Part shown: positions 9,597-60,243 of the stretch, piece after piece
Numbering within the stretch: position 1 is the stretch's first letter
How the letters are laid out: each line of letters opens with the position of its first letter
Assembly (NCBI GenBank): GCA_000632805.1
Contig: CP007444.1
Location: 5,196,772 to 5,260,771 of the forward strand
Direction of reading: 5' to 3'
DNA from: Dyella jiangningensis
GTDB lineage: Bacteria; Pseudomonadota; Gammaproteobacteria; Xanthomonadales; Rhodanobacteraceae
Length of the DNA: 64,000 bases
Translations under genes and position numbers: made by a program
Notes under the pieces: model-generated
Database searches by the model: none
The model's input: only the letters and a program-made list of their open reading frames with translations
What the model was told of the DNA's origin: nothing

Positions 9597-9599
9597 GGG

Positions 9600-19200: not shown

Positions 19201-19213
19201 CGCAACAGGTTGA

Positions 19214-19852: not shown

Positions 19853-20096
19853 GGGAGTACTCCATATGATCTTTTTAGGATCGATCCCTGAAAGATCTGC
19901 GGGCCGGGGGAAAGGCTGATCGCAGTCACACCCGATCCGTGGGTGCCAGGGGATTAGAGCCATGGGAGCCTGAAGGGTTTCCGTATCCCTTACCCAAAAA
20001 TTAAGGACAAATTAAGGTCTTGGGCGTGGGACAGGGGCCTGGCAATCGGCGACAATGGGCGTTTTTAGCCGCCATCGCCCCCGGAGAACCCTCTCA

Positions 20097-43241: not shown

Positions 43242-43334
43242 ATGCCCAAAAAGCATGCAATTTGGCTGTTAGGTGACAAAAGCGCGCTAACCATCCTCGA
43301 GCGATATGTGCGTCGGCCGGAGGTTCCGGCATGA
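43242..43334 (+). CDS. 30-aa peptide translationally coupled to tnsA
   Basis: Frame MPKKHAIWLLGDKSALTILE and ten more residues. GGGAGG lies 5 nt before the ATG and the stop overlaps the tnsA start (ATGA), so translation of the peptide could deliver ribosomes to tnsA, which has no strong site of its own. No known domain. Its ribosome site is inside the stem described for the leader. Confidence 0.55.
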   Translation: MPKKHAIWLLGDKSALTILERYVRRPEVPA

Positions 43335-44239: not shown

Positions 44240-46470
44240 CTCCCGTAATAGGTCACGTCATCCGACGCGGTATTGGAGAAACGATCGTCGATAGTGCATG
44301 CCGGGTGTTAGCAGTGTCACTCTCATCCGACGCGGTCTGGCTGATTCCCCTGCCTAGGGAAAAATCAGTCTCCAGCCCGAGTTGCCGACACATGCTAGGT
44401 CCGCAGCGCTATTCCCTGTCGACCATCTCGGAAGCCCTGGCCTCAGGGGGCTTAGTCATGGAGGACATTCCACTTCCCGGTCAGTGGAAGTTGACCGACG
44501 CAGATTATGTGGGCAGCGCTGCGACCGAACGAGAAAAGGCGCTGAGGTTGGGGCGGATCAAGAAGCGCGACCAACGCTGGCATGTGCTTAGCGAAGTTAT
44601 CGGAGCGGCAAAAGCCCAAGACATCGTTCCTGTTGCCTACCTCTTGGTTGAGAAAATCACTGAGGTGTCCCGTCGGCATGGCATCAGCAAGCCAACCATA
44701 TATAGCTGGCTACACCGGTTCTGGGCCGGGCGCGAATGTCTCAACAGCCTCCTACCCAATACAAATCGATGCGGAAGTCCTGGTTCTCGAAAAAAGCAAA
44801 CGGGGCGGCGCCTGGGAAGAAAGTCGCAGCGCTACAAAGCGGGTCGCGTACAAAGCGAAGGGTACTCTCTGAAAGAGGGTGATCCAGAACGCCTTGCCTG
44901 CGGATATGCGCTTGTGAAACCAGGAGTGACATTGCGAGATGCGTATCTCTTGACGATGGGAGCGTACTGGTCGAGCCCGCACCAAGATGAGTGCGGGAAA
45001 CTCCAATATGAGCTTTTTCCCGACCATATGCGCCCCACACAGCCCCAGTTTGCGTACTGGGGCAGAAAACTCCATGGGAGCCCCTTGCGACGGAAAGTGA
45101 TGGGACTGGATCGATGGTTGACCTCCACGTTGGCGGTGGCTGGCAGCGCGCAAGACCAAGTGCACGCGGTAGGTCAAATGGCCATGATTGATTCGACGTC
45201 GACTGATCTCTACCTGACGTCGATGATGTCTAGGCACCTGGTCCTCCCGCCAATGGCCAGAACGATCGTTATCGAAGTTCGGTCGACATGTGCTATGGGC
45301 TTCCATGTGGGATGGGAGGATCCAAGTTCGGACACGTCCTTGCTCGCGATCCTATGTGCTGCTCAAGATAAGAAAGAAATCGTCGCGCGCTACGGCATCG
45401 ATATCGAGCTAGATGAATGGCCAGGCATGCTTCACCGGCTCTATCTAGCAGATAACGGTGAGATGAAGTCCGAGGCGATAAAGGAGGCAGAGAAGCAGTT
45501 CCGATTTGGTGTCGAGTTCGCGAAGGCGTACAGCGGGCAAAGTAAGAGCCTTGTGGAGTCCAGCCATCATGCGACCCATAAAGCACTCGACCACAAATTG
45601 CCTGGTACGACACGCGGCAAGCAGCGTAAACGTGGACAACCTGATCCAAAGTCTGAGGCACTTTGGAACTACGGCGAATATATGCCCGAGTTCATCTTGG
45701 AATTGATCGCCTATAACAATCAAGAAGTACCTGACCTCGCACCTGTAGATATGGTACGAGTAGGTATCGCACCCACGCGCATCAACATATTCCGATGGCT
45801 TCGCGACCATGGGGTTCGTGCGGACATCGGTTTCGACCTCGATCAGCTTCGAGCATTTACGCTTCCAAGCTATAAAGCAGTCTTTCGTCGGGATGGGGTT
45901 CACCTCCTTACGGAGGATGGAAGCACCCGTATTCGAGGTCATCGGTTCTTTGCGGAAGAAGTAGTGGCCGACGCGCGCTGGCAAAAAGCAGCTACAGATA
46001 ACCGTTCCGTCGACTTGACCGTCAAGCTCAATCCACAGGACCTCACCCACGTGTGGCTTCCGACAGAAGAAGGTCTTGTGTGTCTGCCCAACGTCCAGGC
46101 GGAACAGGCGCTGTTGGATGGGCTCACGCTGGGGGACTGGAAGGGATTCTTGGGGGAGGAGGCACTTCGCAATGACTCCGGACGACAGGCGAAGGACCAG
46201 CATGAGCTAGACAAGCTGGTAAGGCGGGACAAAGTGTCCCGAGCAGCGACCGCAGAGAAGAAAAAAGAATTGCAGGAGTCCTCGGTTGCACCTACGCCAG
46301 TAAAGAACCAATCGCTTCGTCAGAACAAGGCTCAAGAGAAGGAGCATTTGAGCCCAAAAACACTCACAGGATCTGGCGATACCGGGTCCGAAAAGATTCC
46401 ACCCGCCTCTCCCTCGGCGCCGGATGCCGCAGAGATCGCAATGGAAGATTTCATGCGGGAGTTCGGCTAA
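44236..46470 (+). CDS. tnsB: TnsB, DDE transposase of a Tn7-like element
   Basis: 744 residues. Integrase-core catalytic triad: Asp319 in MAMIDSTSTD, Asp406 in LADNGEMKS and Glu441 in KSLVESSHH (34 residues between the last two). An N-terminal HTH (EVSRRHGISKPTIYSWLHRF) binds the end repeats. After the core there is a Mu-type C-terminal beta-barrel and a long charged tail ending DAAEIAMEDFMREFG, the part known to contact TnsC. Catalyses 3' strand cleavage and joining. Coupled to tnsA (ATGA) and tnsC (TAATG). Confidence 0.92.
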   Translation: MTPVIGHVIRRGIGETIVDSACRVLAVSLSSDAVWLIPLPREKSVSSPSCRHMLGPQRYSLSTISEALASGGLVMEDIPLPGQWKLTDADYVGSAATEREKALRLGRIKKRDQRWHVLSEVIGAAKAQDIVPVAYLLVEKITEVSRRHGISKPTIYSWLHRFWAGRECLNSLLPNTNRCGSPGSRKKQTGRRLGRKSQRYKAGRVQSEGYSLKEGDPERLACGYALVKPGVTLRDAYLLTMGAYWSSPHQDECGKLQYELFPDHMRPTQPQFAYWGRKLHGSPLRRKVMGLDRWLTSTLAVAGSAQDQVHAVGQMAMIDSTSTDLYLTSMMSRHLVLPPMARTIVIEVRSTCAMGFHVGWEDPSSDTSLLAILCAAQDKKEIVARYGIDIELDEWPGMLHRLYLADNGEMKSEAIKEAEKQFRFGVEFAKAYSGQSKSLVESSHHATHKALDHKLPGTTRGKQRKRGQPDPKSEALWNYGEYMPEFILELIAYNNQEVPDLAPVDMVRVGIAPTRINIFRWLRDHGVRADIGFDLDQLRAFTLPSYKAVFRRDGVHLLTEDGSTRIRGHRFFAEEVVADARWQKAATDNRSVDLTVKLNPQDLTHVWLPTEEGLVCLPNVQAEQALLDGLTLGDWKGFLGEEALRNDSGRQAKDQHELDKLVRRDKVSRAATAEKKKELQESSVAPTPVKNQSLRQNKAQEKEHLSPKTLTGSGDTGSEKIPPASPSAPDAAEIAMEDFMREFG

Positions 46471-47966
46471 TGGGAAAACTTACACCTAGGCATCCTGAGC
46501 TAGTGAACGGGCCTAATCCGCTTCTTGAGGCCGCGGCACCTTTCATTGGCTTCTCGAAGTTGGCCGCAACGCTCAGAAGCGAGCCTTTGGAAGAGCTCGA
46601 TTGGGAGTCCATGTCTCCCGAATATCGAGTGCCGCTCCTTAGCATGGCATCACAACACTACTGGCCATGCAGAAAAATCCTAGATGTCGCGGATAGCATC
46701 CAAAGTACGCTCCGGGCAGGTCTAATGGCTCGCAACCCATTATCGGTTGCGGAGCAACGACGAATTAATGCGCTCGCCCTGGCAGATGGCCTGCGCCAAA
46801 CAAATCGCTGCTCGCTACGCGTGCCTGCTGGTGGAGGGATCGTTGCCGCAATCACTGGGATGGGTAAGTCGGCCATCCTGGCGCGTGCACTGCAAGTGGT
46901 CGCTCCCGAGCAGGTTGTGATCCATTCCAAGAGTGAGGCGTGCGGATGGTCATCACTCACGCAGGTCTTGTACTTAGTCATTGATGCGCCGTCCAACGGA
47001 ACTCGAGGTGGTCTGCTGGCTCGAATAGCAGAGGGTTTAGATGTGCTTTTGGGGACCGACTATTCCGAGACGCTACGCAAGCTTCGTAATCTTGATTCAT
47101 CGCTGCTTTTCATAACAAAGCTTCTATCCATCCATCGAGTAGGCATGTTAGCCATTGACGAAAACCAGCTCGAAAACTTGGAGGAAAGCATCTGGCAGCG
47201 TAGTTTCGTCCTCTTCTTCCTCGGTCTAATGAACCTAGGTATACCAGTGCTGCTGCTTGGCAATCCTTTGGCTTTTTCGGGGATCGAAGCTGCGTCACAA
47301 AACATGCGACGGCTCTCGACGGCGGGCTACCACAAATTGTCTCCAGCACTGAATTCAACCGACGTTTGGTGGGCCAAGGAGTGTGTTCCGGGTTTTTGTA
47401 GGTTCTCTGTTTGCGAGGATGTACCGCCAATCCAAGAAATCGTGGACGCGACGTTCGAAGTGTCAGCAGGGGTTCCTGGCCTGTTCGGTGCGGTTTGGTG
47501 GGAAGCACAACGGATTGCGCTTCGGCGCGGCGGCGAGAAAGTCACCTTAGGCCTTGCCGATCTCCTTGCGGCCTTCGAGTCCCCGAGGGTTACGGAGATC
47601 AGGAGCATTGCGCAGCAAATCCTAGGCAACTCAAAAATTAGGCCATATCTCGATATACCGCCTGAGGCAAAGATCGGGCCGGAACGAGATTCAAAAGCGT
47701 CGTGTAACAACGAAGGGGGGATTGTCACCGATGGCACCAAGAACCAGAAGGAGAGCTTGGATCCGATTCGGGCGATGAAGTCAAAGCTCGAAAGACAGGC
47801 TTTGGCGAAAGAGCGCGCCGCTGCGAAGCGAAGGGAAAAGGCTGACTACCTGAGTCCGGACGATATTCGTGCGTACGAACAGAAAATGGAGGCGTTCGCC
47901 GGCCTTGATGGCATGCAAGAGCCACTCTTGGCCGGAGCGAAACGTGCTTCTCCCAAAGCCCGTTAA
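46470..47966 (+). CDS. tnsC: TnsC, AAA+ regulator of Tn7-like transposition
   Basis: 498 residues. Walker A AAITGMGKSAIL with Lys133, Walker B VGMLAIDENQLENL, and a sensor-like LLLGNPLAF. The N-terminal 100 residues and the charged C-terminus flank the ATPase as in Tn7 TnsC. It links target selection by TniQ/TnsD to TnsAB and provides target immunity. The ATG overlaps the tnsB stop by one base. It is followed by convergent tniQ genes. Confidence 0.9.
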   Translation: MGKLTPRHPELVNGPNPLLEAAAPFIGFSKLAATLRSEPLEELDWESMSPEYRVPLLSMASQHYWPCRKILDVADSIQSTLRAGLMARNPLSVAEQRRINALALADGLRQTNRCSLRVPAGGGIVAAITGMGKSAILARALQVVAPEQVVIHSKSEACGWSSLTQVLYLVIDAPSNGTRGGLLARIAEGLDVLLGTDYSETLRKLRNLDSSLLFITKLLSIHRVGMLAIDENQLENLEESIWQRSFVLFFLGLMNLGIPVLLLGNPLAFSGIEAASQNMRRLSTAGYHKLSPALNSTDVWWAKECVPGFCRFSVCEDVPPIQEIVDATFEVSAGVPGLFGAVWWEAQRIALRRGGEKVTLGLADLLAAFESPRVTEIRSIAQQILGNSKIRPYLDIPPEAKIGPERDSKASCNNEGGIVTDGTKNQKESLDPIRAMKSKLERQALAKERAAAKRREKADYLSPDDIRAYEQKMEAFAGLDGMQEPLLAGAKRASPKAR

Positions 47967-47991
47967 AAGGAGTTCTTATCTAACAGTAGCA

Positions 47992-49236
47992 CTACAGCTG
48001 ACCTTGTGACCAAGCGATCTCGCGGCGCCGAAGCTCCTTCACTAACCACGAGGACGAACTCCATGATTGTTCCATGGACAGGCGATAAAGGAGGTCGTCT
48101 GGCAACGTCGCTATAAATCTTCGAATGATGATGCGATCAATTGCGATGTCACGATCGATGGCTTTTGCGCTCATATCATCGGACAGTTTCTGAAATAGCG
48201 CAGGCGGGAAATTGGCATCCATAACCCAATTGCGCAGTTCCGTCTGCGTTTGCGGCGTGAGCCATGAACCAAAAGGTTTGATGGCTGATAGCTGGATGGG
48301 CGAATGCCACGGGGAATGCTCCAGGCGCGGGGGGCTCAATTTCATCTCATCGAGAGCTCCCACGATGACAAGGCGAGATGCTACGTAGCTCGCATGAATC
48401 CTCTGTTCCAGCTCCGCCTGTACGAATTGGCTGCCATCGGCGATGCCAAGGCAGAACGCAATATCGGCGATCGGCACGCTCCAGGCGCGCTCGATAACCG
48501 AATTGATCTGAATGTTGGCTTCGGCTATTGATCCAAAGTGACGAACGACGGCATCCATCACAAGCATCCATGACTCAGGCGCAATGCCCGTAAGGTTTCC
48601 CTCAAACGCTTCGATCCAGAGCTTTAGGTAGGAAGCGTAGCCGTCGGACATAGGTAGTGACGTCCATTTCGGCTCGATTTCCCGGGATGGCCGTTCACCA
48701 GGGAGGTAGAACGATGAAGATCCATCGGAAGACATGCGGTCTGGTCCCTCTTGGTGAAGTGGTGCCCCATGCTGCGGACAGTGCCCAATGGAGGGCAACA
48801 TGTGCAGTACACGCCAAGAAGTGAACCCCTGCGTTTCCACATCCTCCTCGATGCATTTTTGGCACGATCGCAAGTTTTCAGTGGCAAGCTTGGGAATCTT
48901 CCTGCGTCTGTGGCCGCGAAATGCCTTACGGAATTTTGTTCCGTCGCCGGCGATGAGCTGTTTAGCCAACTTGTCGGCCATGTGCGCGCTCATCACACGG
49001 CAATAAGCACCAAACAACGTGTGTTGCTCAAGAGTCTGTCGAGCCGATGCTCCGGCTCCGAATAGGCTTGCCGCAGCTTTCCCGGCACCGGCCCCAACAA
49101 TATTGACGCGATACTTAGACCTTGTCGTTCCACCGAAAATGGCTGCAAAGGAGGAGGCATTGCTGGAGCCAAGGTGCATCCGATGGTGCACTACGACGGC
49201 ACTGAAGAGGGCTGCGCCTGGCCGTAGCAGAGGCAT
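47992..49236 (-). CDS. TniQ family target-selection protein (short)
   Basis: About 414 residues if started at the ATG at 49236, where the TniQ-like opening LLRPGAALFSAVVVHHRMH begins; a frame to 49323 is possible but overlaps the upstream gene by 73 bp. Zinc motif LRSCQKC followed by HCPQHGAPL, the typical CxxC...CxxH of TniQ. The C-terminal half is helical, with no recognised DNA-binding domain. It may be a second target selector or a co-factor of TnsC. It is transcribed toward tnsC and follows the larger tniQ gene on the same strand. Confidence 0.8.
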   Translation of the reverse strand: MPLLRPGAALFSAVVVHHRMHLGSSNASSFAAIFGGTTRSKYRVNIVGAGAGKAAASLFGAGASARQTLEQHTLFGAYCRVMSAHMADKLAKQLIAGDGTKFRKAFRGHRRRKIPKLATENLRSCQKCIEEDVETQGFTSWRVLHMLPSIGHCPQHGAPLHQEGPDRMSSDGSSSFYLPGERPSREIEPKWTSLPMSDGYASYLKLWIEAFEGNLTGIAPESWMLVMDAVVRHFGSIAEANIQINSVIERAWSVPIADIAFCLGIADGSQFVQAELEQRIHASYVASRLVIVGALDEMKLSPPRLEHSPWHSPIQLSAIKPFGSWLTPQTQTELRNWVMDANFPPALFQKLSDDMSAKAIDRDIAIDRIIIRRFIATLPDDLLYRLSMEQSWSSSSWLVKELRRREIAWSQGQL

Positions 49237-49250
49237 GTACCCGAGCGCGG

Positions 49251-50741
49251 TCACCGGCTTTGCCCTTTCGATCGGCTTGAGGAGGTCTGATGGTGTGCTT
49301 TTGGCAAATGGTGGCAAAGCCAAGCGCGGTCATGGCGATAGAGCCACATGTAACAGTTGTTGGGCACTCGACGGAGTGCCTTCGTCGTTAGCTGCGGGTT
49401 TCTTTGAACGATCAGGTTGAATCTGCTTCGCGCCTTCCCTCTATGAGCTAGAAGCCGCGTGTTTACCCAAGTCTCCGCGAGGTGGCGGTCGGCCGCGAGC
49501 ATCCGCCGAACCGTTTGACGCGATATCGTCAACCTGGCCGAAACATTTCCAATGTCTTGACCATTCTTCAGCATCTGTCGCGCTCTTCCTTGCTTCTCGG
49601 CAGTAAATGTCTTTGCGCGCGGAGTGAACGGGAAGTCGAGCTGTTTGGCCCATTTCACTCCGGTGGTGGTGGTTACACCGATTTGGGCGCTGGCGGCTCG
49701 TATGGATAGCCCTTTCGAAAGGAGTGCTGCAAGGGTGCACCTGGGGGCAGCTTTAGGTGCCGCCCGCTCCGCCCGTGGGGGTGAACCGTCGCTATCGGAG
49801 CTTGTACAGTAGGTCGTCCAAAAGTCGTCCCAGCTTTCAAAGAGCATCGCGATTAGAAGCAAATGCTTGAAGGGATGGCCTGGGCGAGGACACTTTCGTG
49901 TCAGTGCAGCTGCAAGTCCTGGCCAATCGGAAGTTACAGCCTGGAGTGTCTCGAATCCGGGTACAGCCTCCAAGCCGCGGTATCGAGATCGGGTCAGGCT
50001 AACCAGGGCGGGTAGTCTCAAAGACCCCCTTGCCGTAACTAGCCCCAGTCCTCGGAGCGCCACTTGGTAGCTTGTCGCCAGGTGAACGGGGTCCAGCGAG
50101 CTAGGATCCAGCAGACCGAAGCGCCTCGAAAAAGTGGCGAGTCGGAGCAGTCGATCAATTTGCTGATCGTTAGCTAACGGCACCGGGATCCATTCTCGCG
50201 CTATACCGCTTCTAGGAAGCAGCCACCCCCTTCGATGGACCGGGGTAACGGAGTCCCAGGCAATCGTCAGGGGGCGTTGATGTTTCTCACACACCATGAC
50301 CGATGGATATTGATGCGCAAGGTGCCAATAGGCGAATCCGCTAGTTGACTCATCTTCGTCGAAGCACTCCAGGCATCCTTTGAAAGGGTGGTGCCCGCCA
50401 ATGCGGCTTGCAGTGATGCCTAATCGCATCTTCAGGTCCGGCATCGAGGTTGCACACGTACGCTTCAGGATCTCTTCCGCTAGGCCGGTACCGGCAAGGG
50501 GTAAGAAGTAGCCGAGCAATGTATGTCTAAGTGCAAGCAGGCGCGCTGGGCCAAGGGATCCCTCGGTGTTTCGTTCGAGATCCGAAAGGTGAGAAGGAAA
50601 GTCATGTAGGAATGCGGCGTGTCGGGAGCTAAAAAGTTTCACGCTCGTAGATATGGCGCCTAGGCCATTCCAGGCATGCGCTATTCCCGACCAGCTATAT
50701 AGCGTCTCGTCGTGAGCGAGAAGTGGCAAATTCTTGAGCAT
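49251..50741 (-). CDS. tnsD: TnsD-like TniQ protein, probable glmS-site selector
   Basis: 496 residues. N-terminal TniQ domain begins LPLLAHDETLYSWSGIAHAW, with zinc motif KGCLECF and VCEKHQRPL. The C-terminal half carries two helix-turn-helix-like units (GLSIRAASAQIGVTTTTGVKW; NVSARLTISRQTVRRMLA) as in TnsD. TnsD proteins bind the 3' end of glmS and recruit TnsC; since this element sits at the attTn7 position, this protein is the best candidate. Its promoter lies in the region with the right-end-like site. Confidence 0.85.
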   Translation of the reverse strand: MLKNLPLLAHDETLYSWSGIAHAWNGLGAISTSVKLFSSRHAAFLHDFPSHLSDLERNTEGSLGPARLLALRHTLLGYFLPLAGTGLAEEILKRTCATSMPDLKMRLGITASRIGGHHPFKGCLECFDEDESTSGFAYWHLAHQYPSVMVCEKHQRPLTIAWDSVTPVHRRGWLLPRSGIAREWIPVPLANDQQIDRLLRLATFSRRFGLLDPSSLDPVHLATSYQVALRGLGLVTARGSLRLPALVSLTRSRYRGLEAVPGFETLQAVTSDWPGLAAALTRKCPRPGHPFKHLLLIAMLFESWDDFWTTYCTSSDSDGSPPRAERAAPKAAPRCTLAALLSKGLSIRAASAQIGVTTTTGVKWAKQLDFPFTPRAKTFTAEKQGRARQMLKNGQDIGNVSARLTISRQTVRRMLAADRHLAETWVNTRLLAHRGKARSRFNLIVQRNPQLTTKALRRVPNNCYMWLYRHDRAWLCHHLPKAHHQTSSSRSKGQSR

Positions 50742-51656: not shown

Positions 51657-52568
51657 TCAAAGGGCGGGAATGGAAGTGCCTTCAGGATTCAAATTGGTCA
51701 TTTCCGCCACTTCTTGAAACTCCGCGAGATAGTCGGGCTGATGTTCTTGGAGCCAGCTCACGATGGCGGGTTTCTTCAAGCATTTTGACAGGTACGCTTT
51801 GGCAATCGTCAGCTCGAGGACATCCTCGCCGTAGCTCTCTTCGATGTACTTGGTTTTCTTCTGTGCGGCCGCAAGCTCGCGTTCGAGCCTAGCGATCTGC
51901 TCTCGGGAAATGTCCTGGAACTGGGGCCGCGACTTGTTGGAGGCGAGTTGGTCGTCTGGGGTGGCAGCCAGAATTGTCTTAATGAAGTTGGAAGAGTAGT
52001 TTTTTTGGCCAATCATAAGCTCGACGGCTTCGATCTGGCGCATGGGTTTCATGCGCTTAAGGACCTCAAAAACATTTCTAGGGCATGGCCCATCCGCCAA
52101 TAATTCAACCGCCTCGTCGCAGATACCTTCCAGCATTCGGAAGCGTCGCCTAACTGTGTTGACATCAAGCCTTAGCGCTTTGGCAATTCTTTCTTCATGG
52201 ACGCCACGCTCGATGGCTCGGACGATCATCCTGTGCTCTTGAACGGCTGATAGGCGACTGATGCGCTTGTTGTACGTGTACGCCTCGTCATCCGTCGAGA
52301 CGAGGCATTCAACTTCTGCCCACCCAAGCTCGCGCGCGATCTCGATGCGGAGAAGGCCATCGAGCAAAAAGTACGTGCCAGGCTTTTGTCGATTTGAAAC
52401 GACCACGGGTAGCTCGACCATCCCTATCTCATGCATGGATGCGGCGATTTGCGCGTACTTCTGACTCTGCTTGATGGTCGCTCGCAACGGCTTAAGAGGG
52501 ATGATGCAAGATAGCGGCACGTTTTGCGTTTCGCTCTCAAAGGCGGCGGGAGGGATTTTATCGCTCAT
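51657..52568 (-). CDS. ParB/RepB-like partition family protein 2
   Basis: 303 residues. N-terminal ParB-like domain (SQKYAQIAASMHEIGMVELP, then FLLDGLLRIEIARELG), a helix-turn-helix (HEERIAKALRLDVNTVRRRF) and a RepB-type C-terminal helical part with a coiled coil (EQIARLERELAAAQKKTKYI). Its ATG overlaps the stop of the first ParB-like gene by 4 nt. No ParA is nearby, so this is unlikely to be an ordinary partition system; the pair travels with the serine recombinase. Role unknown. Confidence 0.75.
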   Translation of the reverse strand: MSDKIPPAAFESETQNVPLSCIIPLKPLRATIKQSQKYAQIAASMHEIGMVELPVVVSNRQKPGTYFLLDGLLRIEIARELGWAEVECLVSTDDEAYTYNKRISRLSAVQEHRMIVRAIERGVHEERIAKALRLDVNTVRRRFRMLEGICDEAVELLADGPCPRNVFEVLKRMKPMRQIEAVELMIGQKNYSSNFIKTILAATPDDQLASNKSRPQFQDISREQIARLERELAAAQKKTKYIEESYGEDVLELTIAKAYLSKCLKKPAIVSWLQEHQPDYLAEFQEVAEMTNLNPEGTSIPAL

Positions 52569-53449
52569 GCCCGATCTCCCTTCGCCATGCGCCGCTCTAG
52601 TGGACCAGGTATGGTGCCTAGACCTTCGCGCTGTAACAGGGCGACAAAGTTTGGGTCCTGGCGGAGGTGCTTAAGTGCCTGGACTACGAAGAACAAGCGC
52701 TTCTGCGTGAAGTCGGCCGTCTTGGCCAGTAGCTGTTGCTTCCCGACCTCTCGCTCAAAGATGCGTCGAAGGCGTTCAGCAGTTAGCTTCCTGCTTCCCT
52801 TTCGATTGATGCCAGAGGAATGTCGTTCGTTTTTACCGCGAAGGCTGCGTTGATCAAGAATGCGCCGTAGGAGTGCCAGCTTCTTTCCTTTCACGATCCC
52901 GTGGGTGTAGGCGCTGGCGAGGGCCTCTTGTATGCCTGTGTCGTCGCTCCTCGAAATCGTTACGGCGAGGCTTATTGGGATAATGCCTTTCTCGACCGCT
53001 GCCAGAAGGCGCTCTTCTCCATGCTCTAATAGGCCCAAGATCATGTTCACCCAAGAGGCGGTGACGCCAAGCTTGTCGGCGACCTGTACATCGTCGTACC
53101 CACGGTGATGCAGATCCTCGATCTCTCGCATCAACTCGACGGCTTGGTGCTGCCGCCGCGCGATGTTTTCGACAAGGCTCATGACCATGCAGTCTTCCTC
53201 GTCGGCTGAAACGACCATGCTTGGGATGCAGTCCATACCCAGGAGTTGGTAGGCCTCCAGGCGACCTTGGCCGCAGACGAGGTCGAACTGGTCCTCTTCG
53301 CCTTGCTGTGATCGTCGAGTCACTGTGATGGGCCGTTTGAGGCCGATCTTTTCGATGTTTTCAACGATCGTTCTGTATTGCCGTTGGTTTCGAGCGCGTG
53401 GATTCAGGACATGTATTTTTGAGACAGGAACTAATTCGACGGTTCGCAT
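52565..53449 (-). CDS. ParB/RepB-like partition family protein 1
   Basis: 294 residues. ParB N-terminal fold: NPRARNQRQYRTIVENIEKI, LVCGQGRLEAYQLLG (matching the GERRxRA-type box) and VENIARRQHQAVELM. HTH follows in VQVADKLGVTASWVNMIL. The C-terminal third resembles RepB. It starts 15 bp after the recombinase stop, and its own stop overlaps the second ParB-like gene. May assist the recombinase as an accessory DNA-bridging factor; this is inference. Confidence 0.78.
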   Translation of the reverse strand: MRTVELVPVSKIHVLNPRARNQRQYRTIVENIEKIGLKRPITVTRRSQQGEEDQFDLVCGQGRLEAYQLLGMDCIPSMVVSADEEDCMVMSLVENIARRQHQAVELMREIEDLHHRGYDDVQVADKLGVTASWVNMILGLLEHGEERLLAAVEKGIIPISLAVTISRSDDTGIQEALASAYTHGIVKGKKLALLRRILDQRSLRGKNERHSSGINRKGSRKLTAERLRRIFEREVGKQQLLAKTADFTQKRLFFVVQALKHLRQDPNFVALLQREGLGTIPGPLERRMAKGDRA

Positions 53450-53464
53450 ATCAGGTCCTCCGAA

Positions 53465-55036
53465 TCAGGCGACCCATTGAAGTGGCGCTCGATCTGCCAG
53501 AGCGAACAAAGGATCCAGCGAGTCAAATCGATACGCATCAAGCGTAAATGCGTTGTTTTCCTCAGCGAGCCGGAGGGGGCGGAGCGGAAGATCAATTCGA
53601 GGAAAGAGGTAGTAATCGAGGATCGTCCGTTGGTCCGAAGAAAGCCGAGCGACGATCGTGATGTCTGGCGCGAGACTCGTGTCAAAGTGCACTTTCCAGC
53701 GGAAGGTTCCGCTCGTTAGCTGGATGCAGCGAGAGAGGACGATCGAAAGCGTGAATTCACCATTGATAAGCATCAGGCCGGTTTCATGCGCGTCGACGGA
53801 TATCGACAGGCAAACGCGCTCCAAATCGGAAATGACCTTATCCACGATCTCAGGCAACATTTGCCGAAGAGATCTATTTATTTCAATGTAGCGATAGTCT
53901 CGCTCTGGGCGAAACCCTATCAAGGCGTATGCGCGAATGAGGCCACCAAAGCGCGCACTATAGGCGTGGCTTGAAGGCATCTCGTCTTGCTCATCGATGA
54001 GAAGCCCAGACAAGATCCCTGCTTTCTCATAGAGCTCGCGGAGCATGTGCAACATTGTGTCGCTGTCCAAATGTTCCGAGCGAGCGGAAATGATGGTTTG
54101 GACGCGCTCAAATAGCTCCGGCGAGATGATGGAGTCGAAGGCGCCCGCCCTGCGTATCCACATGTCGGGAGCGTTGCGAACCCGCTTTTGCTTTAGCTTG
54201 AATGATGTTCGGTTATAGACGTTGTTACCGACGTACTTTTCGTTGGTCAGAATCTGGTGGATAGTTCCCCGCGTCCATGGTCTGCCGAGATCGTTCTCTA
54301 AACCCATGGCGTTGAGGTCATCCGCGATGACTCGCTCGGGTTTTCCCTCTTCGAGAAAGGATCTGTATATCTGACGAATGATGGCGATCTCGTCGTCTGG
54401 GCCAGGAACAAGGACGACGCGGTCGGTCTGGAGGCTCTTCTTTTCACCTCGGCCCAACTGTCCTTTAGGTAGGCGTTGCTCATCAAGAAGCATCCGGCGA
54501 AGTCCATAGCCGGGAGATCCGCCTTGTCGAAAGCCGAGTTCGATGAGACGGCATTGGCCCTGGAAGACTTTGTTTGAAAGCTCCCTGCTGTATTCGCCCG
54601 CCATGGCCCGCTTGACGCTCTTCATGATGGTCGCCATAGGGCTTCCATCATTCTCGAAGGGCTCGGTGCAGTAGAAGACTCTTATTCCGGAACGCCGGCA
54701 CAAATACTCGTAGTAGGCGCTTTCGTCCGCGTCCTGAAATCGACCCCAGCGACTGATGTCGTACACGAGGACGGCCGAGAAGGCGGGCTTCCCGGATCGA
54801 ACGTCCTCAATCAGAGTCTTGAGCGCCTCTCGTCCTTCGAGTCTGAGGCCACTTTTTCCCTCATCTGCATAGGTGCGAACTATGACCATCCCATGCTGGG
54901 CTGCGTACTTCGCAATGGAGTCTTGCTGGTTTTCCGTGGAGTAGCGCTGATGATCCGTCGACATGCGGACGTACTGGGCCACCCTGATCGGTAGCTCGGG
55001 TCCGTCACCTGGCTTTGCCGTCGATCGCCGACCCAT
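53465..55036 (-). CDS. Large serine recombinase
   Basis: 523 residues. N-terminal resolvase domain with the catalytic Ser in QYVRMSTDHQRYSTENQQ and Arg residues in YDISRWGRF; then the Recombinase domain (GYGLRRMLLDEQRLP, and RVIADDLNAMGLENDLGRPW, INEKYVGNNVYNR type). The C-terminal region lacks the usual zinc-ribbon cysteines. It likely integrates, excises or inverts DNA at a short site. Together with two ParB-like proteins it forms a three-gene operon. The inverted repeats upstream of its start are a candidate site or operator. Confidence 0.88.
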   Translation of the reverse strand: MGRRSTAKPGDGPELPIRVAQYVRMSTDHQRYSTENQQDSIAKYAAQHGMVIVRTYADEGKSGLRLEGREALKTLIEDVRSGKPAFSAVLVYDISRWGRFQDADESAYYEYLCRRSGIRVFYCTEPFENDGSPMATIMKSVKRAMAGEYSRELSNKVFQGQCRLIELGFRQGGSPGYGLRRMLLDEQRLPKGQLGRGEKKSLQTDRVVLVPGPDDEIAIIRQIYRSFLEEGKPERVIADDLNAMGLENDLGRPWTRGTIHQILTNEKYVGNNVYNRTSFKLKQKRVRNAPDMWIRRAGAFDSIISPELFERVQTIISARSEHLDSDTMLHMLRELYEKAGILSGLLIDEQDEMPSSHAYSARFGGLIRAYALIGFRPERDYRYIEINRSLRQMLPEIVDKVISDLERVCLSISVDAHETGLMLINGEFTLSIVLSRCIQLTSGTFRWKVHFDTSLAPDITIVARLSSDQRTILDYYLFPRIDLPLRPLRLAEENNAFTLDAYRFDSLDPLFALADRAPLQWVA

Positions 55037-55129: not shown

Positions 55130-55477
55130 CTATAGGCTTACGGGCGCGCTGTAAGGTGTTGCCGGGGCCATGGTTTCTACGAGCCGAAGGAGAGCAACCT
55201 TTTGATCCTGAGTCAAAGTCCTGAATCGTTCGAGCAGGTGGACTTCCTCTGACAAAGGGGCCTCAGGGAGGCTGCTGGCCACGAGCTCCCAAGGGTGGCA
55301 ACCCAATGGAATGGCGAGCCGCAATAACCAATCTACCGTCAAGCGCCGTTTGCCAATCTCAAGCAGGCTGAGCTGCTGGTTGGTGGTGCCTGCTTTGGAC
55401 GCGAGGGAGTCGAGTGTTAGGCCCCGGGCCTCTCGTAAAACGCGGATACGATTGTTCACGCAGTTCAATGTCCCCAA
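55130..55477 (-). CDS. XRE family transcriptional regulator
   Basis: 115 residues. Cro/C1 helix-turn-helix at residues 8-63: IRVLREARGLTLDSLASKAG then TNQQLSLLEIGKRRL. The C-terminal part (EEVHLLERFRTLTQDQKVALL) is a helical dimerisation tail. It is directly upstream of the recombinase on the same strand, with the inverted repeats between them, so it probably represses the recombinase operon. Confidence 0.82.
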   Translation of the reverse strand: MGTLNCVNNRIRVLREARGLTLDSLASKAGTTNQQLSLLEIGKRRLTVDWLLRLAIPLGCHPWELVASSLPEAPLSEEVHLLERFRTLTQDQKVALLRLVETMAPATPYSAPVSL

Positions 55478-55669
55478 TGTGCCCCAGAAGTCTATGGTTG
55501 CATTCAGCCATACGGAGTGCGAGAGCGCTCGGCCCTTCTATGGGCGCTAGCTAAATTTAGGGGCTTTCATTTTTACCGTCCTCGATTTCGCTTGATCTCC
55601 TCGGTCCCAGATCAGGGGAAAGCGCAACGGTGGAAACTGGGCCAGCCGTACCCTGCGGCTCGGAAGGCC

Positions 55670-56434
55670 TCAATACGACGGCTTCCTCTTCTGCTTCTTG
55701 GCGTGCCTGGAAGCTTTCTGCTTGTGCTGCGCCACGGCCCGATTCCATCGCTCAGCGATCGGTTCGATCTGAGCGTAGGAGCCGTCGTTGCCAAAAACGG
55801 CTAAGAGAACCGGTGACAACTCGATATGCCCCACCTTCAGCACGTGTTCGACTCTTCGAGATTCGACATAAAAGAACACTGACACACTGAAAATGGTGAT
55901 CTGAATCCAGGTCGATGCAATCAAATTGAAGTGGCTAGACACCACGCGCGTAGCGAGCCAAAAGCACAGCGCGCAAACACAGGAGATCATCACCAGTATG
56001 AAGTTCCTATATCGGCCTTTCATCGGCTGGTCCATCAACTTCAACTTCGTGATGCGACGAATTGTAAAGAAGCTTGCGGCCAGGAATGGAACAGCCGCGC
56101 CGAAAATGTCAAAGGACGTCGCGCCATATGCTGTTGGTCTAAAGCTATAAACGCCGATAAACGCAAGTACACCGATGCCTGCAAGCTTCAGGTCGTTTTT
56201 GATCTCGTTGTAAAATTTGGTTTGATAAGGTGAGCTGACCCCCGCGTAGACAGCGAGCATTTCTACCGTCACTACTACCAAGTACGGCCAAAGCGCTGAC
56301 CCATACACAAGTACCAGCGCCAGATACCAGTTCAACTTACCCGGGATCGCTAAGTACCCTACGGATAGCGCAACGAAGCCAGTAAGGCCCAAAACATACT
56401 TCACGGCTTTAGCCGTCGATGTGCGAAGCGTCAT
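55670..56434 (-). CDS. Polytopic membrane protein of unknown function
   Basis: 254 residues with about six hydrophobic segments (near 13-30, 37-60, 83-100, 107-124, 145-163, 172-190) and a basic C-terminal tail (KQKASRHAKKQKRK). No known domain recognised. It lies 90 bp downstream of the DUF6527 gene on the same strand and may be the last gene of the ubiquitin-like operon, perhaps as membrane effector or target; this is a guess from position. GC content is low compared with the core. Confidence 0.6.
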   Translation of the reverse strand: MTLRTSTAKAVKYVLGLTGFVALSVGYLAIPGKLNWYLALVLVYGSALWPYLVVVTVEMLAVYAGVSSPYQTKFYNEIKNDLKLAGIGVLAFIGVYSFRPTAYGATSFDIFGAAVPFLAASFFTIRRITKLKLMDQPMKGRYRNFILVMISCVCALCFWLATRVVSSHFNLIASTWIQITIFSVSVFFYVESRRVEHVLKVGHIELSPVLLAVFGNDGSYAQIEPIAERWNRAVAQHKQKASRHAKKQKRKPSY

Positions 56435-56523
56435 GCCAGTGGGTCCTAATCCGAATGAGATGCGTGCATTGGCCTATCGGTCCGCCGAAGACGCGAAAGG
56501 TGACACGATGGTTGTTCGCCGTT

Positions 56524-56955
56524 TCAACGCGTGCGCAACCAATACCATGCCCGTGCGAGCCAGGATTCCTTGGCAGCTGGGCTCGTCTGCCATGTAGGCG
56601 CTTGGCGGTTGATCGTTTGGATGTGGCGATCGGCGTCTCGGCGATCGCGGCGTTTCACCTGTTCGATCTTTTGAAGAGACATGGAAGGTGCTGGAATGAC
56701 CTGATTGTCCCGGATCCAGTAATGCGATCGGCAAGGAAACTTCCAGTTGCCAATGGAAGGCCACAGGCTGACACCACGCTGACCCTTTATGATTCTCCAG
56801 CGTGAAGGCCTAAGGGGTGTGATGACTTCCTCCCCACATCCGCAACAGCACTTGTGAGCAGCCAGGGCGAACGGTTCACTTATATAGAGTAAGCCGTCTT
56901 CCAATTTTTCTGGGAGGTGCTCGACGAAGCGGGGTTCCAATGCGCGAATCTTCAT
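56524..56955 (-). CDS. DUF6527 family protein
   Basis: 143 residues from the ATG at 56955, just 2 nt after the E1 stop. Hallmarks: AAHKCCCGCGEEVITPL, GVSLWPSIGNWKFPCRSHYWI, both rich in Cys/His and likely metal-binding. DUF6527 genes accompany bacterial multiubiquitin/ThiF operons; a peptidase or ligase-like role has been suggested but I know of no proof. A longer frame to 56997 overlaps the E1 gene and is less likely. Confidence 0.8.
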   Translation of the reverse strand: MKIRALEPRFVEHLPEKLEDGLLYISEPFALAAHKCCCGCGEEVITPLRPSRWRIIKGQRGVSLWPSIGNWKFPCRSHYWIRDNQVIPAPSMSLQKIEQVKRRDRRDADRHIQTINRQAPTWQTSPAAKESWLARAWYWLRTR

Positions 56956-56957
56956 CT

Positions 56958-58151
56958 TCACGCTGCCATGTCGGGCGTAGTGATGAGGCGACTCCACGCA
57001 AGGACATACTTGACGACATCGGCCCCGACGTCATCCCCGTAGAAGCCAAAAAACTGTTTGAATCGGATGACTGCCAAGCATGCATTCAGTGCATTAAGTT
57101 CTACCAGCTGGATATTGTTATAGACGGCCTCTCGCGCGTCAGGTTGGGTCGGTAGATCAGCAACCAAGTGCGCGGAGTCGGGCGTCACTAGCGTCACGCG
57201 TGTCCGGGCGATCAGCTGGCTAGTCTCTGGAACGCGGTCAACACCAATGCCGACATCGATAAATGGGATGCCCTGCTGGACCAAGTGGGATGCAATGATC
57301 TGACGCGAGGGGCCATCATCGATGGCAACGAAGACAAAGTCGCAATCGTTGAGCTCGTGTACATTCGTGGCGTCAATGCGGCGCTCATGAGCATGGATGC
57401 CCGACCGCATAAGGCCATACACCTGCGCCAAGTACGTTGCCTTCTTGATACCAGCGTTGGCCGCCTCATTCGACAGTGCGCCAGGCATGCGAAAGACATT
57501 TTTCGGCGCGATGCTGTCATCGTCGTAGAGATGCACAGAGTCGATCGGGATCTTGGCAAGTGCATCAAGCAAGTAGCTGCCGGTGCCTCCTGTACCAATG
57601 ATGGCGACCTTTCGAAGTTTTAATTTTGCTTCACACTCATCCAGGCCCGCGCGAACGATGGTGTCATTGGGAAAATAAAAGGGAGATGGTGTCTGCCGTT
57701 GCCCAAAACTGCCGCGATCACCGTTCGCCGATACACCCGACTCCACTGCCTGCGCAAAGCCGGTCAACTTGCGAATGTAATGCGTCATCTTGTTGTAGAT
57801 GTTGTCGAGCAAGTTTCCGATCGGATCGGGTTTGTTCGAGAGTCGGCACTGCGCTTGCCGCCCTGCCACTGTCAAGCTGTTGGCGTCAGCCACCATCGTG
57901 TTCGCAAGCGATCGGCCATCGGGCCCGCACGGCACAGTCCCTGTAAACCAGACGGTATGATCGTTATCGAGCATACAGCGGCCTTCCTCTTCGCGGAAAG
58001 CGGAGATCAGGGCTCCGCGACTGACGACGCCTGCCGCAGAAACATAGGGAACGTGCTCGACGATGAGGTACCGATCTTCGATCTGGACGGTATAACCCTC
58101 ATCGACGAGCTGCTGGACTGCCGGATCACGAGCGGTTGGATTTTCCAGCAT
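56958..58151 (-). CDS. ThiF/E1-like activating enzyme with N-terminal DUF6791 region
   Basis: 397 residues from the ATG at 58151 (a GTG at 58181 gives ten more). The N-terminal ~170 residues (LVDEGYTVQIEDRYLIVEHV) match the DUF6791 type found before ThiF domains. The adenylation domain has VAIIGTGGTGSYLLDALAKI, the Asp/Arg motif LYDDDSIAPKNVFRM and PFIDVGIGV. A possible thioester Cys is in LNALNACLAV. Expected to adenylate the UBL C-terminus. Its start overlaps the UBL gene and its stop touches the DUF6527 gene, so it is central in the operon. Confidence 0.85.
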   Translation of the reverse strand: MLENPTARDPAVQQLVDEGYTVQIEDRYLIVEHVPYVSAAGVVSRGALISAFREEEGRCMLDNDHTVWFTGTVPCGPDGRSLANTMVADANSLTVAGRQAQCRLSNKPDPIGNLLDNIYNKMTHYIRKLTGFAQAVESGVSANGDRGSFGQRQTPSPFYFPNDTIVRAGLDECEAKLKLRKVAIIGTGGTGSYLLDALAKIPIDSVHLYDDDSIAPKNVFRMPGALSNEAANAGIKKATYLAQVYGLMRSGIHAHERRIDATNVHELNDCDFVFVAIDDGPSRQIIASHLVQQGIPFIDVGIGVDRVPETSQLIARTRVTLVTPDSAHLVADLPTQPDAREAVYNNIQLVELNALNACLAVIRFKQFFGFYGDDVGADVVKYVLAWSRLITTPDMAA

Positions 58152-58386
58152 CGAAGCGCATCCCGTTCTCAAGTTCGACACTTTGTCCGTTGGTCAGGCG
58201 GCCAGCTTGATGGCCGTGCGTCCATTCCACGTCGTAGAGATCCAGTTCCTCCGCAGGAGGATTGAAACCTGCCAGGTGCAAGACCTCAATGAACGAGATT
58301 TGCGGCCCCGGTACCTTACGAGGACGGGAGTTCACAAAGATCTGGAAGGTTTTTTCGTGCAGGTTCTCGGGATGTTCGGCAGTCAT
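58126..58386 (-). CDS. Ubiquitin-like (multiubiquitin-domain) protein, single domain
   Basis: 86 residues. The beta-grasp pattern of the multiubiquitin family is clear: FQIFVNSRPRKVPGPQISFIE, then AGFNPPAEELDLYDVEW and QSVELENGMRFDAG. Only one domain is present, while family members often have several. The C-terminus is AGKSNRS, not GG; trimming of five residues would leave a terminal Gly. It is encoded just before the E1, overlapping it by 26 bp. Probably conjugated to targets or stored as a modifier in antiphage defence. Confidence 0.82.
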   Translation of the reverse strand: MTAEHPENLHEKTFQIFVNSRPRKVPGPQISFIEVLHLAGFNPPAEELDLYDVEWTHGHQAGRLTNGQSVELENGMRFDAGKSNRS

Positions 58387-58416
58387 ACAGTGGCCTCTTG
58401 GGGGTGTGGATGGGCA

Positions 58417-58590
58417 TTACCGCTCTTTGCGCACGCCTTTGAACGGCTTGCGATCAGCCTTCTGATCGATGAACTGGCCGGTTCCTGCGTCGCGCTTCGT
58501 CCAGCGATCGTTCTTCGGGTTGTAGGTCTGGCTGCGATCGCGAACAGCCCCATTTCGGTGGCCATCTCCAGAGGGAGGGTTGGTTGCCAT
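58417..58590 (-). CDS. 57-aa basic protein, first gene of the ubiquitin-like operon
   Basis: 57 residues, not found in a list of longer frames. Begins MATNPPSGDGHRNGAVRDRS and ends DRKPFKGVRKER; highly charged and probably unstructured. I recall similar small proteins in other genomes but cannot name them. The stop is 30 bp before the UBL gene on the same strand, so it belongs to the operon. Its start abuts the first GTTTAC half-site. Confidence 0.65.
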   Translation of the reverse strand: MATNPPSGDGHRNGAVRDRSQTYNPKNDRWTKRDAGTGQFIDQKADRKPFKGVRKER

Positions 58591-58677
58591 GTTTACAAAT
58601 CCTTTAAATTGGTTGATTTGCGTAAACTATAGGTCTTGGTTTACGATGTGTCAACAGGACAAGGATTTATGTAAACC
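58591..58677. promoter_or_regulatory. Four alternating GTTTAC half-sites between the UBL and XRE-ImmA units
   Basis: GTTTAC at 58591, GTAAAC at 58622, GTTTAC at 58639 (as GGTTTAC) and GTAAAC at 58671 (as GTAAACC) form two inverted pairs with 25 and 26 bp between the arms. They fill the divergent promoter region. The XRE-ImmA protein encoded next door is the likely ligand; it would then control both transcription units. Confidence 0.65.
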
Positions 58678-58688
58678 ACGAGAGCGCC

Positions 58689-59768
58689 ATGCTAGGTGAT
58701 CGAATCAAACAGGGCCGCACTGCGGCCGGGCTTTCCCTGCGAGATCTGGCCCAGCTTGTCGGGCTGAGTGCTATGGCTATTTCTAAGTTCGAACGCGAGC
58801 AGCTGAAGCCTTCCAGCGAGACCTTGTTGCGCTTGGCGAAGGCTATGAACGTAAGGGTCGAATACTTCTTCCGGCAACCAGCCATTGAGTTGTCGGAAGT
58901 TGAATTTCGCAAGCACTCCAAGCTGTCCACCAAGGATGAAGAGAAGGCTCTGGCCGACGTACGAGAGCAACTGGAGCGTTGGCTGGAGCTAGAGGCTGTC
59001 ATCCCGGTGTCTTGGCCCAAAGCCTTCTTGCCGCCGGGCGACCTGGTGGGCGAATTGGCGACCTATGAGGACGTTGAAGTGCAAGCCGACCGCGTCCGAG
59101 CAACTTGGCAGTTGGGGACTGGGCCAATCCGCAATCTGATGGACAAGATGGAGGAGGAAGGCATCAAGGTCATCCTGACTCCTCACGATGGTGAAAAGAA
59201 ATTTGATGGCTTAGTCGCAAAAGCCAATGACCATACCGTGGTCGTGGTGGGCAAAGATTGGCCGGGTGATCGCCAGCGCTTTACGCTGGCTCATGAGCTA
59301 GGACACCTGGTACTTCACGGTCGGTTAGCTGCGTCACTGGACGAAGAACGAGCTTGCAATCGCTTTGCCGGTGCGTTTCTCGCGCCCAAGAGCGAAGTGC
59401 TTCGCCTTCTCGGTGAATCCCGGTCATGGTTAGAACCCCAAGAGCTTTACCTATTAAAACGGGACTGGGGGCTAAGCATGAATGGATGGATTTACCGTGC
59501 GCAGGATTTGGGGGTTCTAAATAGAGCGGCCGCGCGCCGACATTGGGACTTTTTTGCGCAGCAAGGAGAGGGACGTACCTGGCGTGAGTTGGAGCCGGGT
59601 GAGCCGTACCCTAAAGAGACCCCGCGCCGTTTCGAGCAACTGGTTTATCGAGCTTTGGCAGAGGATTTGATTGGAGAATCAAAAGCAGCTGAGCTGATGG
59701 GTATGCAACTCAGCAAGCTTCGTGCTCGCCGTCGCATGGATGCCGTCGATGCGCCTGGTTGTCACTGA
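58689..59768 (+). CDS. XRE regulator fused to ImmA/IrrE metallopeptidase
   Basis: 359 residues. N-terminal HTH (KQGRTAAGLSLRDLAQLVGL, MAISKFEREQLKPS) and a C-terminal ImmA/IrrE peptidase with RFTLAHELGHLVLHG and the Glu/Asn helix EERACNRFAGAFLAP. Proteins of this kind act as antitoxin/repressor in XRE-ImmA + PIN or similar pairs, and can be inactivated by stress. It overlaps the PIN gene by 20 bp and faces the UBL operon across the GTTTAC repeats. Confidence 0.88.
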   Translation: MLGDRIKQGRTAAGLSLRDLAQLVGLSAMAISKFEREQLKPSSETLLRLAKAMNVRVEYFFRQPAIELSEVEFRKHSKLSTKDEEKALADVREQLERWLELEAVIPVSWPKAFLPPGDLVGELATYEDVEVQADRVRATWQLGTGPIRNLMDKMEEEGIKVILTPHDGEKKFDGLVAKANDHTVVVVGKDWPGDRQRFTLAHELGHLVLHGRLAASLDEERACNRFAGAFLAPKSEVLRLLGESRSWLEPQELYLLKRDWGLSMNGWIYRAQDLGVLNRAAARRHWDFFAQQGEGRTWRELEPGEPYPKETPRRFEQLVYRALAEDLIGESKAAELMGMQLSKLRARRRMDAVDAPGCH

Positions 59769-60243
59769 CGCAAACATCATCATCGACCTCGCTGCGGGCG
59801 ACATGCTGGCGGAGATGTTTCGCCTGCCTGAGGTGGAGTTTTGCGTGCCCGATGTCCTCTATTTGGAAGAGTTGGCGGAAAATTTTGGCCTGTTGCCGGG
59901 ATTGGGTCTGCGAGTGCTTGCTCAGCCGCCGGAAGCTGTGGAGTACGTAGAGGCATGCGTCGTACGGTATCGGCGTGTGAGCTTCAACGATCTCTTTGCC
60001 TTAGCTTTAGCTCGCTCCCTTGGATGCGTGCTGTTGTCAGGAGACGGTGCGCTTCGGGATGTGGCCCAGATCGAACAAGTAGAGATTCGCGGGACGCTCT
60101 GGTTGATTGATCTCATGCTTGAGGCGGGCCTGGTTACGCTTGAGCGCGTCACTGCTGCATATGAGGCTATGCGCAGGGATGGAAGCCGACTGCCCTGGAA
60201 TGATGTGGAGGCGCAACTGCGACGCTGGCACTCCTTGCCTTAA
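59749..60243 (+). CDS. PIN-domain protein (probable toxin)
   Basis: 164 residues from the ATG at 59749 (another at 59740). Acidic PIN residues: RLVVTDANIIIDLAAGD, the Glu pair in YLEEL, SFNDLFALALARSLGC and LLSGDGALRD. PIN proteins are usually ribonucleases; this DUF3368-like type is common as toxin partner of XRE-ImmA proteins. The start lies inside the upstream gene, as is usual in toxin-antitoxin pairs. Effect on cells is not known. Confidence 0.82.
   Translation: MRLVVTDANIIIDLAAGDMLAEMFRLPEVEFCVPDVLYLEELAENFGLLPGLGLRVLAQPPEAVEYVEACVVRYRRVSFNDLFALALARSLGCVLLSGDGALRDVAQIEQVEIRGTLWLIDLMLEAGLVTLERVTAAYEAMRRDGSRLPWNDVEAQLRRWHSLP

Follow-up and report, generated by a model that had tools for sequence, protein, structure and literature searches.

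A compact ubiquitin-like operon of Dyella jiangningensis, probably of the type 6e domain-X branch, with a serine-ended ubiquitin-like protein and no E2 or JAB gene

Can a bacterial operon for a ubiquitin-like protein (Ubl) work with an activating enzyme (E1), but with neither a conjugating enzyme (E2) nor a JAB peptidase? The question is raised by a group of minus-strand genes in a stretch of 64,000 nucleotides (nt) of Dyella jiangningensis (assembly GCA_000632805.1, CP007444.1, positions 5,196,772-5,260,771 of the forward strand; hereafter the window), where a preliminary description made from the sequence alone had pointed to a compact Ubl operon at 55670-58590 as a candidate for an undescribed system. 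How ubiquitin-like conjugation originated from simple adenylation is an old open question, and a conserved three-gene cassette that has an E1 and a Ubl seemingly needing no trimming, but lacks relay enzymes, comes near the minimum conceivable for it. Reading of the open reading frames (ORFs) of the window confirmed the coordinates of all five genes on the minus strand: those for a 57-amino-acid (aa) protein, the Ubl, a DUF6791-ThiF E1 and a zinc-type DUF6527 protein, in this order, followed by that of a membrane protein, with a divergent XRE-ImmA/IrrE gene adjoining the operon. The genes are closely packed, with 30 nt between the 57-aa gene and the Ubl gene, an overlap of 26 nt between the Ubl and E1 genes, one of 4 nt between the E1 and DUF6527 genes (provided that the latter begins at GTG 56961, the other candidate being ATG 56955) and a gap of 89 nt before the membrane-protein gene. 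Pfam profile searches assigned the Ubl to Multi_ubiq (PF14452, E = 4.9e-12), the E1 to DUF6791 plus ThiF (E = 3.3e-33 and E = 1.4e-15) and the third protein to DUF6527 (E = 2.2e-22), and the E1 also scores above the cut-off of the NCBIfam 'hypothetical protein' model PRK06153.1-3. We took ATG 58151 as the E1 start, replacing the earlier GTG 58181, because in 87 of 89 relatives the E1 and Ubl genes overlap by exactly 26 nt and this ATG is present in the window.

The arrangement proved to be already described, contrary to the preliminary description, and we make no claim of a first report for this branch. Iyer, Burroughs and Aravind (2006) reported a variant of the polyUbl operon type 6e in which a 'domain X' replaces JAB, with one to three Ubl domains, an E1 whose N-terminal domain is unrelated to JAB, a metal-binding protein Y and a sporadic presence in diverse bacteria (PMC1779556). 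The window likewise has a Multi_ubiq gene in the range of one to three domains and an E1 that starts with a domain not related to JAB; from its place and description DUF6791 would be the domain X of that paper, and the locus would belong to the domain-X branch of type 6e, as a stand-alone Ubl/DUF6791-E1/DUF6527 system. It differs from what the available text of PMC1779556 gives in two respects: the domain-X set is there a subset of an operon type with an inactive E2 (an RWD-like domain, separate or fused), whereas here no E2 was found in 90 loci or in the window, and the non-glycine Ubl ends are unconserved there, whereas a serine is kept here. The terms DUF6527, DUF6791 and PDC-S38 were absent from the main text of the open-access papers searched. 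A Ubl structure is also available, since PDB entry 9cd2 ('ZDHYS365 multi-ubiquitin domain protein'), which ends in ...VTQTDKS and whose last part matches our branch profile at E = 8.7e-25, is by its sequence very probably a Ubl of the same branch; its 222 residues could accommodate several Ubl domains, unlike the window Ubl with its single one. With about even confidence we read the locus as an inducible Ubl-activation module that would work with no thioester relay, E2 or deconjugase, in a chemistry and a defence role that we propose below.

The main sample comprised 90 loci, namely the best 80 (closest to the query) of at least 559 E1 relatives found in a scan of genome contigs and ten plasmid loci. 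The 80 genome loci include Nitrospirae, Chloroflexi, Patescibacteria and one Nitrosopumilus bin. Among 72,556 plasmid records E1 was found in 123 and DUF6527 in 120 (tblastn), and the ten plasmid regions read come from Proteobacteria, one actinomycete, one bacteroidete and one cyanobacterium. A second sample was chosen with the Pfam DUF6791 model, which matched 7 of the 299 genomes searched in the phylum, the window's own genome included; the six further loci all have the three genes and the 26-nt overlap. In the main sample the Ubl gene lies directly 5' of the E1 gene in 89 of the 90 loci and a DUF6527 gene is present in 84 (ORF profiles). With tblastn a Ubl was recovered in the one locus that had seemed to lack it (L066), and L118 proved to have its DUF6527 gene 1.3 kb further downstream. 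Four more loci scored without DUF6527 lie 48-343 bases from the end of their contig, in L126 the gene is genuinely absent, and L041, where an insertion sequence splits the gene, was scored as present. The Ubl ORFs of the 90 loci, window included, are shorter than 135 aa in 66 cases, of 135-199 aa in four and of 200 aa or more in 20.

Related operons with an E2 and a JAB-E1, for which our searches yielded 4 of 299 genomes and 12 loci, encode a multi-ubiquitin protein, an E2/UBC-type protein and a JAB-ThiF protein (we call them siblings). Pfam identifies their E2 as Prok-E2_E in L033 and, within a fusion, in L031; in others it was recognised by annotation or profile. An E2 profile built from these siblings found nothing in the locus stretches searched of all 90 loci, and the corresponding JAB profile matched only L095 (E = 0.003), in the adjoining ORF, which lies on the other strand; both gave 0/6 in the second sample and no match among the window ORFs. 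As a control the profiles recovered E2 in 17 and JAB in 19 of 21 sibling loci, a partly circular figure in that some of these siblings had built the profiles. The absence of a separate E2 and JAB, correctly noticed from the sequence alone, is hence, in the stretches searched, the rule of the branch and not a local loss, and the core consists of three genes, for Ubl, DUF6791-E1 and DUF6527. Since DUF6527 occurs in both branches (seven of the ten plasmid sibling operons read have it annotated), it is not a stand-in for JAB; the position that JAB holds in the sibling E1s is occupied by DUF6791. In five siblings (L031, L155, L158, L159 and L162), all with a JAB match, the Ubl is fused to an E2 domain in one protein, and a free Ubl end would therefore require cleavage.

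A related system is Bub (PDB 9ea4, 9ea5, 9ea8, 9eae and 9eav), which, like the siblings, shares with our branch the Ubl, ThiF and DUF6527 parts and the kinds of neighbouring regulators. The window has an E1 related to BubCD and lacks a separate BubB, which sibling operons and PDB titles suggest to be the E2, and a JAB-E1 of the BubCD kind; DUF6791 stands in place of JAB, and the Ubl ends in serine instead of glycine. The sibling E2 is also without a conserved cysteine. Bil (BilABCD) is likewise a bacterial Ubl operon with an E1, but it has an E2 with a catalytic cysteine and a JAB peptidase (PMC11354881), neither of which is found here, as the window has no JAB profile match and the operon no E2 family match. 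Type II CBASS (cyclic-oligonucleotide-based anti-phage signalling) shares in Cap2/Cap3 an E1-like protein with an extra N-terminal domain, and a PADLOC E1-E2 match on the ThiF part; in our operon Pfam found no nucleotidyltransferase family, and there is no CD-NTase or JAB and no invariant cysteine in the E1.

The Ubl C-terminus is conserved in the branch. The last residue is serine in 88 of 89 relatives, alanine in one and glycine in none, in 79 the protein ends in RS or KS, and serine is also the last residue in the six loci of the second sample; of nine free Ubls aligned from the sibling branch, seven end in G and the remaining two in RA and VA. The overlap with the E1 gene does not dictate this residue. 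In 86 of 87 overlap loci the serine codon is TCN with all four third letters in use (37, 20, 16 and 13), E1 residue 8, encoded by the same letters, varies (R, L, P, H), and the serine end is also kept where the 26-nt overlap is missing (two loci); the serine is selected in its own right. According to PMC1779556, in its available text, new Ubl families without the glycine have no highly conserved C-terminal residue, a statement which on our reading covers polyUbl; relative to that text the conserved serine end is new. A Ubl with one fixed encoded end would also fit the absence of a trimming peptidase.

On the enzyme side, the adenylation residues G186, G188, G189, D210, R221 and K237 of the E1 are present in 90/90 sequences, D212 in 89 and D278 in 86. 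No cysteine is invariant, the best columns being Cys75, within DUF6791 (71/90), and a second one (44/90), and this lack, as far as the alignment tells, is new relative to the text of PMC1779556. DUF6791 itself keeps His65 (90/90), Ser105 (89), Lys121 (87) and Tyr125 (89), a pattern that suggests an active or binding role. A tyrosine before N-I/L/V/M-Q (Tyr344 in the window) fits 86 of the 90, and the four exceptions have a tyrosine at an apparently equivalent place; in five sibling E1s a tyrosine is invariant as well, and a BubCD Y370F mutant appears among the PDB titles, residues that may or may not correspond to Tyr344. The E1 model (mean predicted local distance difference test score, pLDDT, 92.6) has Citrobacter BubCD as its closest solved fold (Foldseek against PDB, E = 8.8e-16, template modelling score 0.48), followed by UBA5, ThiF, PaaA and MccB, and the profile match to BubCD (E = 2.4e-12) covers the adenylation part alone. 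The E1 profiles of the two branches match each other with an hhalign probability of 99.1; the Ubl profiles do so at 96.8, a weak match since the aligned columns are mostly gapped in the window protein.

The scheme that we propose is the following. A repressor-type protein would be inactivated on damage or infection by ImmA/IrrE-style cleavage, releasing XRE repression of the operon; the E1 would adenylate the C-terminal serine carboxylate of a Ubl encoded in mature form; and the activated Ubl would be handed straight to its target with no cysteine thioester, while DUF6791 and DUF6527 would position Ubl and target. As no deconjugase is encoded, the mark would not be removed by the system. The outcome may be anti-phage or stress defence, for which we list the type I restriction and PDC-S06 genes of the window as support.

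It could be argued that an E2 is present after all, concealed within the E1, with DUF6791 as a diverged E2-like (UBC/RWD) domain comparable to the hidden conjugating domain of Cap2, a proposal compatible with the activation module and in our judgement possible though somewhat unlikely. In the model, residues 10-136 of DUF6791 are predicted to form a helix, a strand meander, a loop region and a long helix, and the element order of UBC domains (helix, strand meander, long helix) resembles this; the profile comparison of DUF6791 with Prok-E2_E nevertheless gave an hhalign probability of 0.1, as did that with JAB (0.3 in the comparison of E2 with JAB), so that no homology by sequence to either family was found. 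Cys75 follows the strand 66-69 in 71 of the 90 sequences; the members that lack it have H, Y, F, S or R there. The PADLOC E1-E2 models match the E1 (best E = 1.9e-10) over the ThiF part, with BilD matching at E = 0.0019, and no E2 structure appears among the 50 Foldseek matches listed for the whole E1 chain. Other bacterial E1s do have an N-terminal E2 domain, but for domain X Iyer et al. speculated, instead, on a JAB-like role (PMC1779556).

The presumed regulator is encoded by the divergent gene (58689-59768), whose product has XRE and ImmA/IrrE fused in one protein (Pfam) and matches the PADLOC models capH (E = 1.1e-15), capP (E = 1.4e-12) and, better, RmrA (E = 1.6e-49); the CapH/CapP-type arrangement, XRE plus ImmA/IrrE beside an operon, is therefore found in the window. 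Seven of the ten annotated plasmid loci have genes for XRE, ImmA/IrrE or WYL proteins upstream, and among upstream neighbours of the genome relatives the 25 commonest families listed include Peptidase_M78 (40 of 137 proteins), HTH_3 (36), WYL (5) and HATPase_c (3). These neighbour samples consist of nearest ORFs picked by hand from 77 of the 80 genome loci (137 of 243 upstream and 129 of 192 downstream), omitting the near-duplicates L055, L072 and L100 and several long downstream ORFs. The regulators resemble controllers reported for immune operons, CapW or CapH plus CapP standing at 219 of 544 Bub operons (PMC13373217). In the gap between regulator and operon, the spaced pair GTTTAC-N25-GTAAAC recurs in L098 and, as N24, in L118, the two loci whose regulator likewise precedes a PIN gene, and in 1.66 Mb of sequence the N25 pair was found only at the window locus (plus copies) and in L098. 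The promoter-like site has 11 of 12 consensus letters and is the sole one in 55400-58800. The PIN match has E = 9.2e-05 and 23.5 bits against a cut-off of 23.6; its protein is a probable toxin partner outside the Ubl cassette, and the overlapping genes at 58689-60243 probably form a toxin-antitoxin pair, with an antitoxin that may at the same time regulate the operon.

From the PIN partner, the RmrA-like similarity of the regulator and the suggestion that Bub may mediate stress responses (PMC13373217), one might see the locus mainly as a stress/addiction module (XRE-ImmA/IrrE plus PIN) whose Ubl genes serve the stress response, with the same chemistry; we consider this unlikely, given that the operon is spread across many phyla and plasmids and that abortive infection (Abi), restriction-modification or anti-phage dCTP deaminase genes adjoin several sibling loci.

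We find it rather improbable that the E1 adds a small group to the Ubl C-terminus in the manner of MccB or ThiF/MoeB, with no attachment to protein and the Ubl acting as a carrier or a signal. MccB adenylates a non-glycine C-terminus, and the E1, which has no E2 beside it, is related by structure or sequence to MccB, ThiF, UBA5 and PaaA, among others; yet the nearest solved relative is the Bub E1, and no family recurs in more than 3 of the 129 downstream neighbours scanned, among the 25 commonest families listed. A conserved downstream effector, which we also considered, was not seen among these 129 proteins, one of which has a RadC-type JAB domain. As for a type 6e or Bub operon that lost its E2 and JAB in this one genome, which the preliminary description had named as the finding that would undo its case, siblings with both genes do exist and share the Ubl, ThiF and often DUF6527, but the explanation has hardly any probability left and was rejected on the regular absence counted above (E2 0/90, JAB 1/90, both 0/6), the E1 N-terminal domain and the Ubl C-terminus also differing from those of the siblings.

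The third core protein, DUF6527, has H36, C38, C42, C77, H80 and Y81 conserved in 83 or 84 of its 84 members, against 79 for C40, and the spacing is C38-x(3)-C42 followed, 34 residues on, by C77-x(2)-H80, the last pair being reversed with respect to the pattern C-x(3)-C-x(35-38)-H-x(2)-C given for the metal-binding protein of type 6e (PMC1779556). Its model (pLDDT 91.7) had no Foldseek match in PDB at E <= 0.001, on which we rejected assignment to a known fold, and it matches the model of an 89-aa viral protein (E = 8.9e-13). When viral contigs were scanned by pattern, 77 loci showed DUF6527 and just four the E1. Of the 77, 75 yielded a DUF6527 ORF; it is accompanied by an E1 profile match in six, and in 69 it stands alone, that is, within 5 kb or less on each side (in L198 only 91 bases lie ahead of the match). 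The domain stands alone in these 69, which lie among L164-L240, and in L245, L246 and L247, the three complete phage genomes named below, and neither an E1 nor a Ubl profile matched in the viral stretches searched. Of 78 viral ORFs, 67 are of 86-128 aa; H36, C38, C40, C42 and Y81 are present in all 78, H80 in 74 and C77 in 48. Complete phage records with DUF6527 (E <= 0.01) are those of Erwinia phage pEa_SNUABM_29, where the gene lies between a virion structural gene and a head maturation protease gene, Burkholderia phage FLC9 and Dulem virus 40; a search of 50,697 phage records for the E1 (E <= 1e-5) came back empty. No family recurs among the phage neighbours, the maximum being 2 of 123 proteins (every second neighbour of up to 900 aa, minus four near-duplicate loci).

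The stand-alone viral DUF6527 in 69 loci is new relative to the text of PMC1779556 and may help to show whether operons of this branch act in phage defence. Such a protein could be a decoy, an inhibitor or a case of unrelated use. The fuller proposal, that serine is activated with no catalytic cysteine, E2 or deconjugase and that the phage copies (mostly 86-128 aa, with no C-terminal helical tail) are decoys displacing the DUF6527 of the system, is speculative and to our mind quite improbable as a whole.

Several points weigh against the inducible activation module. Bub operons with similar regulators are, in the available text of PMC13373217, not shown to protect against phage. The 80 genome loci were picked for closeness to the query, and one locus of the 90, L095, has a weak JAB match beside the cassette, on the other strand. 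The serine could act as a degron or a docking site and not as the site of activation, and Cys75 could still be catalytic in most members. Finally, the count of promoter-like sites is not above chance, shuffled sequences having 1.8 sites on average.

Table 1. Features of the Ubl locus and adjoining genes in the window (positions are those of the window)
Feature	Position	Strand	Basis
PDC-S38/phrog_12550 accessory, 57 aa	58417..58590	-	PADLOC and PHROG matches
Ubl, single Multi_ubiq domain, 86 aa, C-terminus ...SNRS	58126..58386	-	Pfam match
26-nt dual-coding overlap, Ubl C-terminal tail and E1 N-terminus	58126..58151	-	87/89 loci, codon analysis, window sequence
E1-like adenylating enzyme, N-terminal DUF6791 plus ThiF, 397 aa from ATG	56958..58151	-	Pfam, model
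DUF6527 protein, predicted metal binding via H36, C38, C40, C42, C77, H80	56524..56961	-	Pfam, alignment, model
Hydrophobic, probably membrane protein, judged outside the system	55670..56434	-	Hydrophobic segments
XRE-ImmA/IrrE protein, CapH/CapP-like halves, PADLOC RmrA-like, presumed regulator	58689..59768	+	Domain matches
PIN-type protein, overlaps end of regulator gene	59722..60243	+	Weak PIN match
Intergenic control region, four GTAAAC/GTTTAC half-sites at 58591, 58622, 58639, 58671	58591..58676	none	Sequence pattern
Promoter-like TTGACA-17-TATAGT for the operon, overlapped by two half-sites	58626..58654	-	Pattern scan

The two outer genes of the group (Table 1) had been counted with the system and fared differently. 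The 57-aa protein is indeed present in the window (PADLOC PDC-S38, E = 1.1e-32; phrog_12550, E = 1.2e-17), but it is an occasional accessory, found upstream of the Ubl gene in only 8 of 90 loci; it also occurs in 59 plasmid records, where the leading genera (Klebsiella, Clavibacter) differ from those of the E1. Other loci have small DUF3892, DUF1508 or DUF2188 genes 5' of the Ubl gene. The membrane protein has no match in the 90 loci and one plasmid match in a different setting, so that its membership, and a role as effector, found no support.

The source assembly is a single contig (C1) of 5,396,991 bases, in which BLAST paired positions 1-20000 with 5052005-5072004 and positions 324988-344987 with the last 20 kb at 100% identity; the window and the next 16 kb are also 100% identical to their counterparts at the same offset. 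This constant offset of identical stretches near both contig ends indicates an untrimmed circular terminal overlap of about 345 kb, and we therefore rejected a second genomic copy and consider the operon single-copy. The overlap may also account for the genome contamination value of 8.39.

Elsewhere in the window, genes for a PDC-S06 AAA protein (865 aa), a type I restriction HsdR (1027 aa) and a YgjP-like peptidase stand in a row at 36003-42401. Probable Tn7-like genes follow at 43331-50741, with two TniQ proteins, one having a TnsD match; beside them are three co-directional genes of 302, 744 and 498 aa, the 744-aa one with an HTH_23 match, which by their expected place may be TnsA, TnsB and TnsC. 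The stretch 51657-55036 holds genes for a large serine recombinase and a RepB-type protein, with an ORF between them that was labelled ParB/RepB-like from reading of its sequence.

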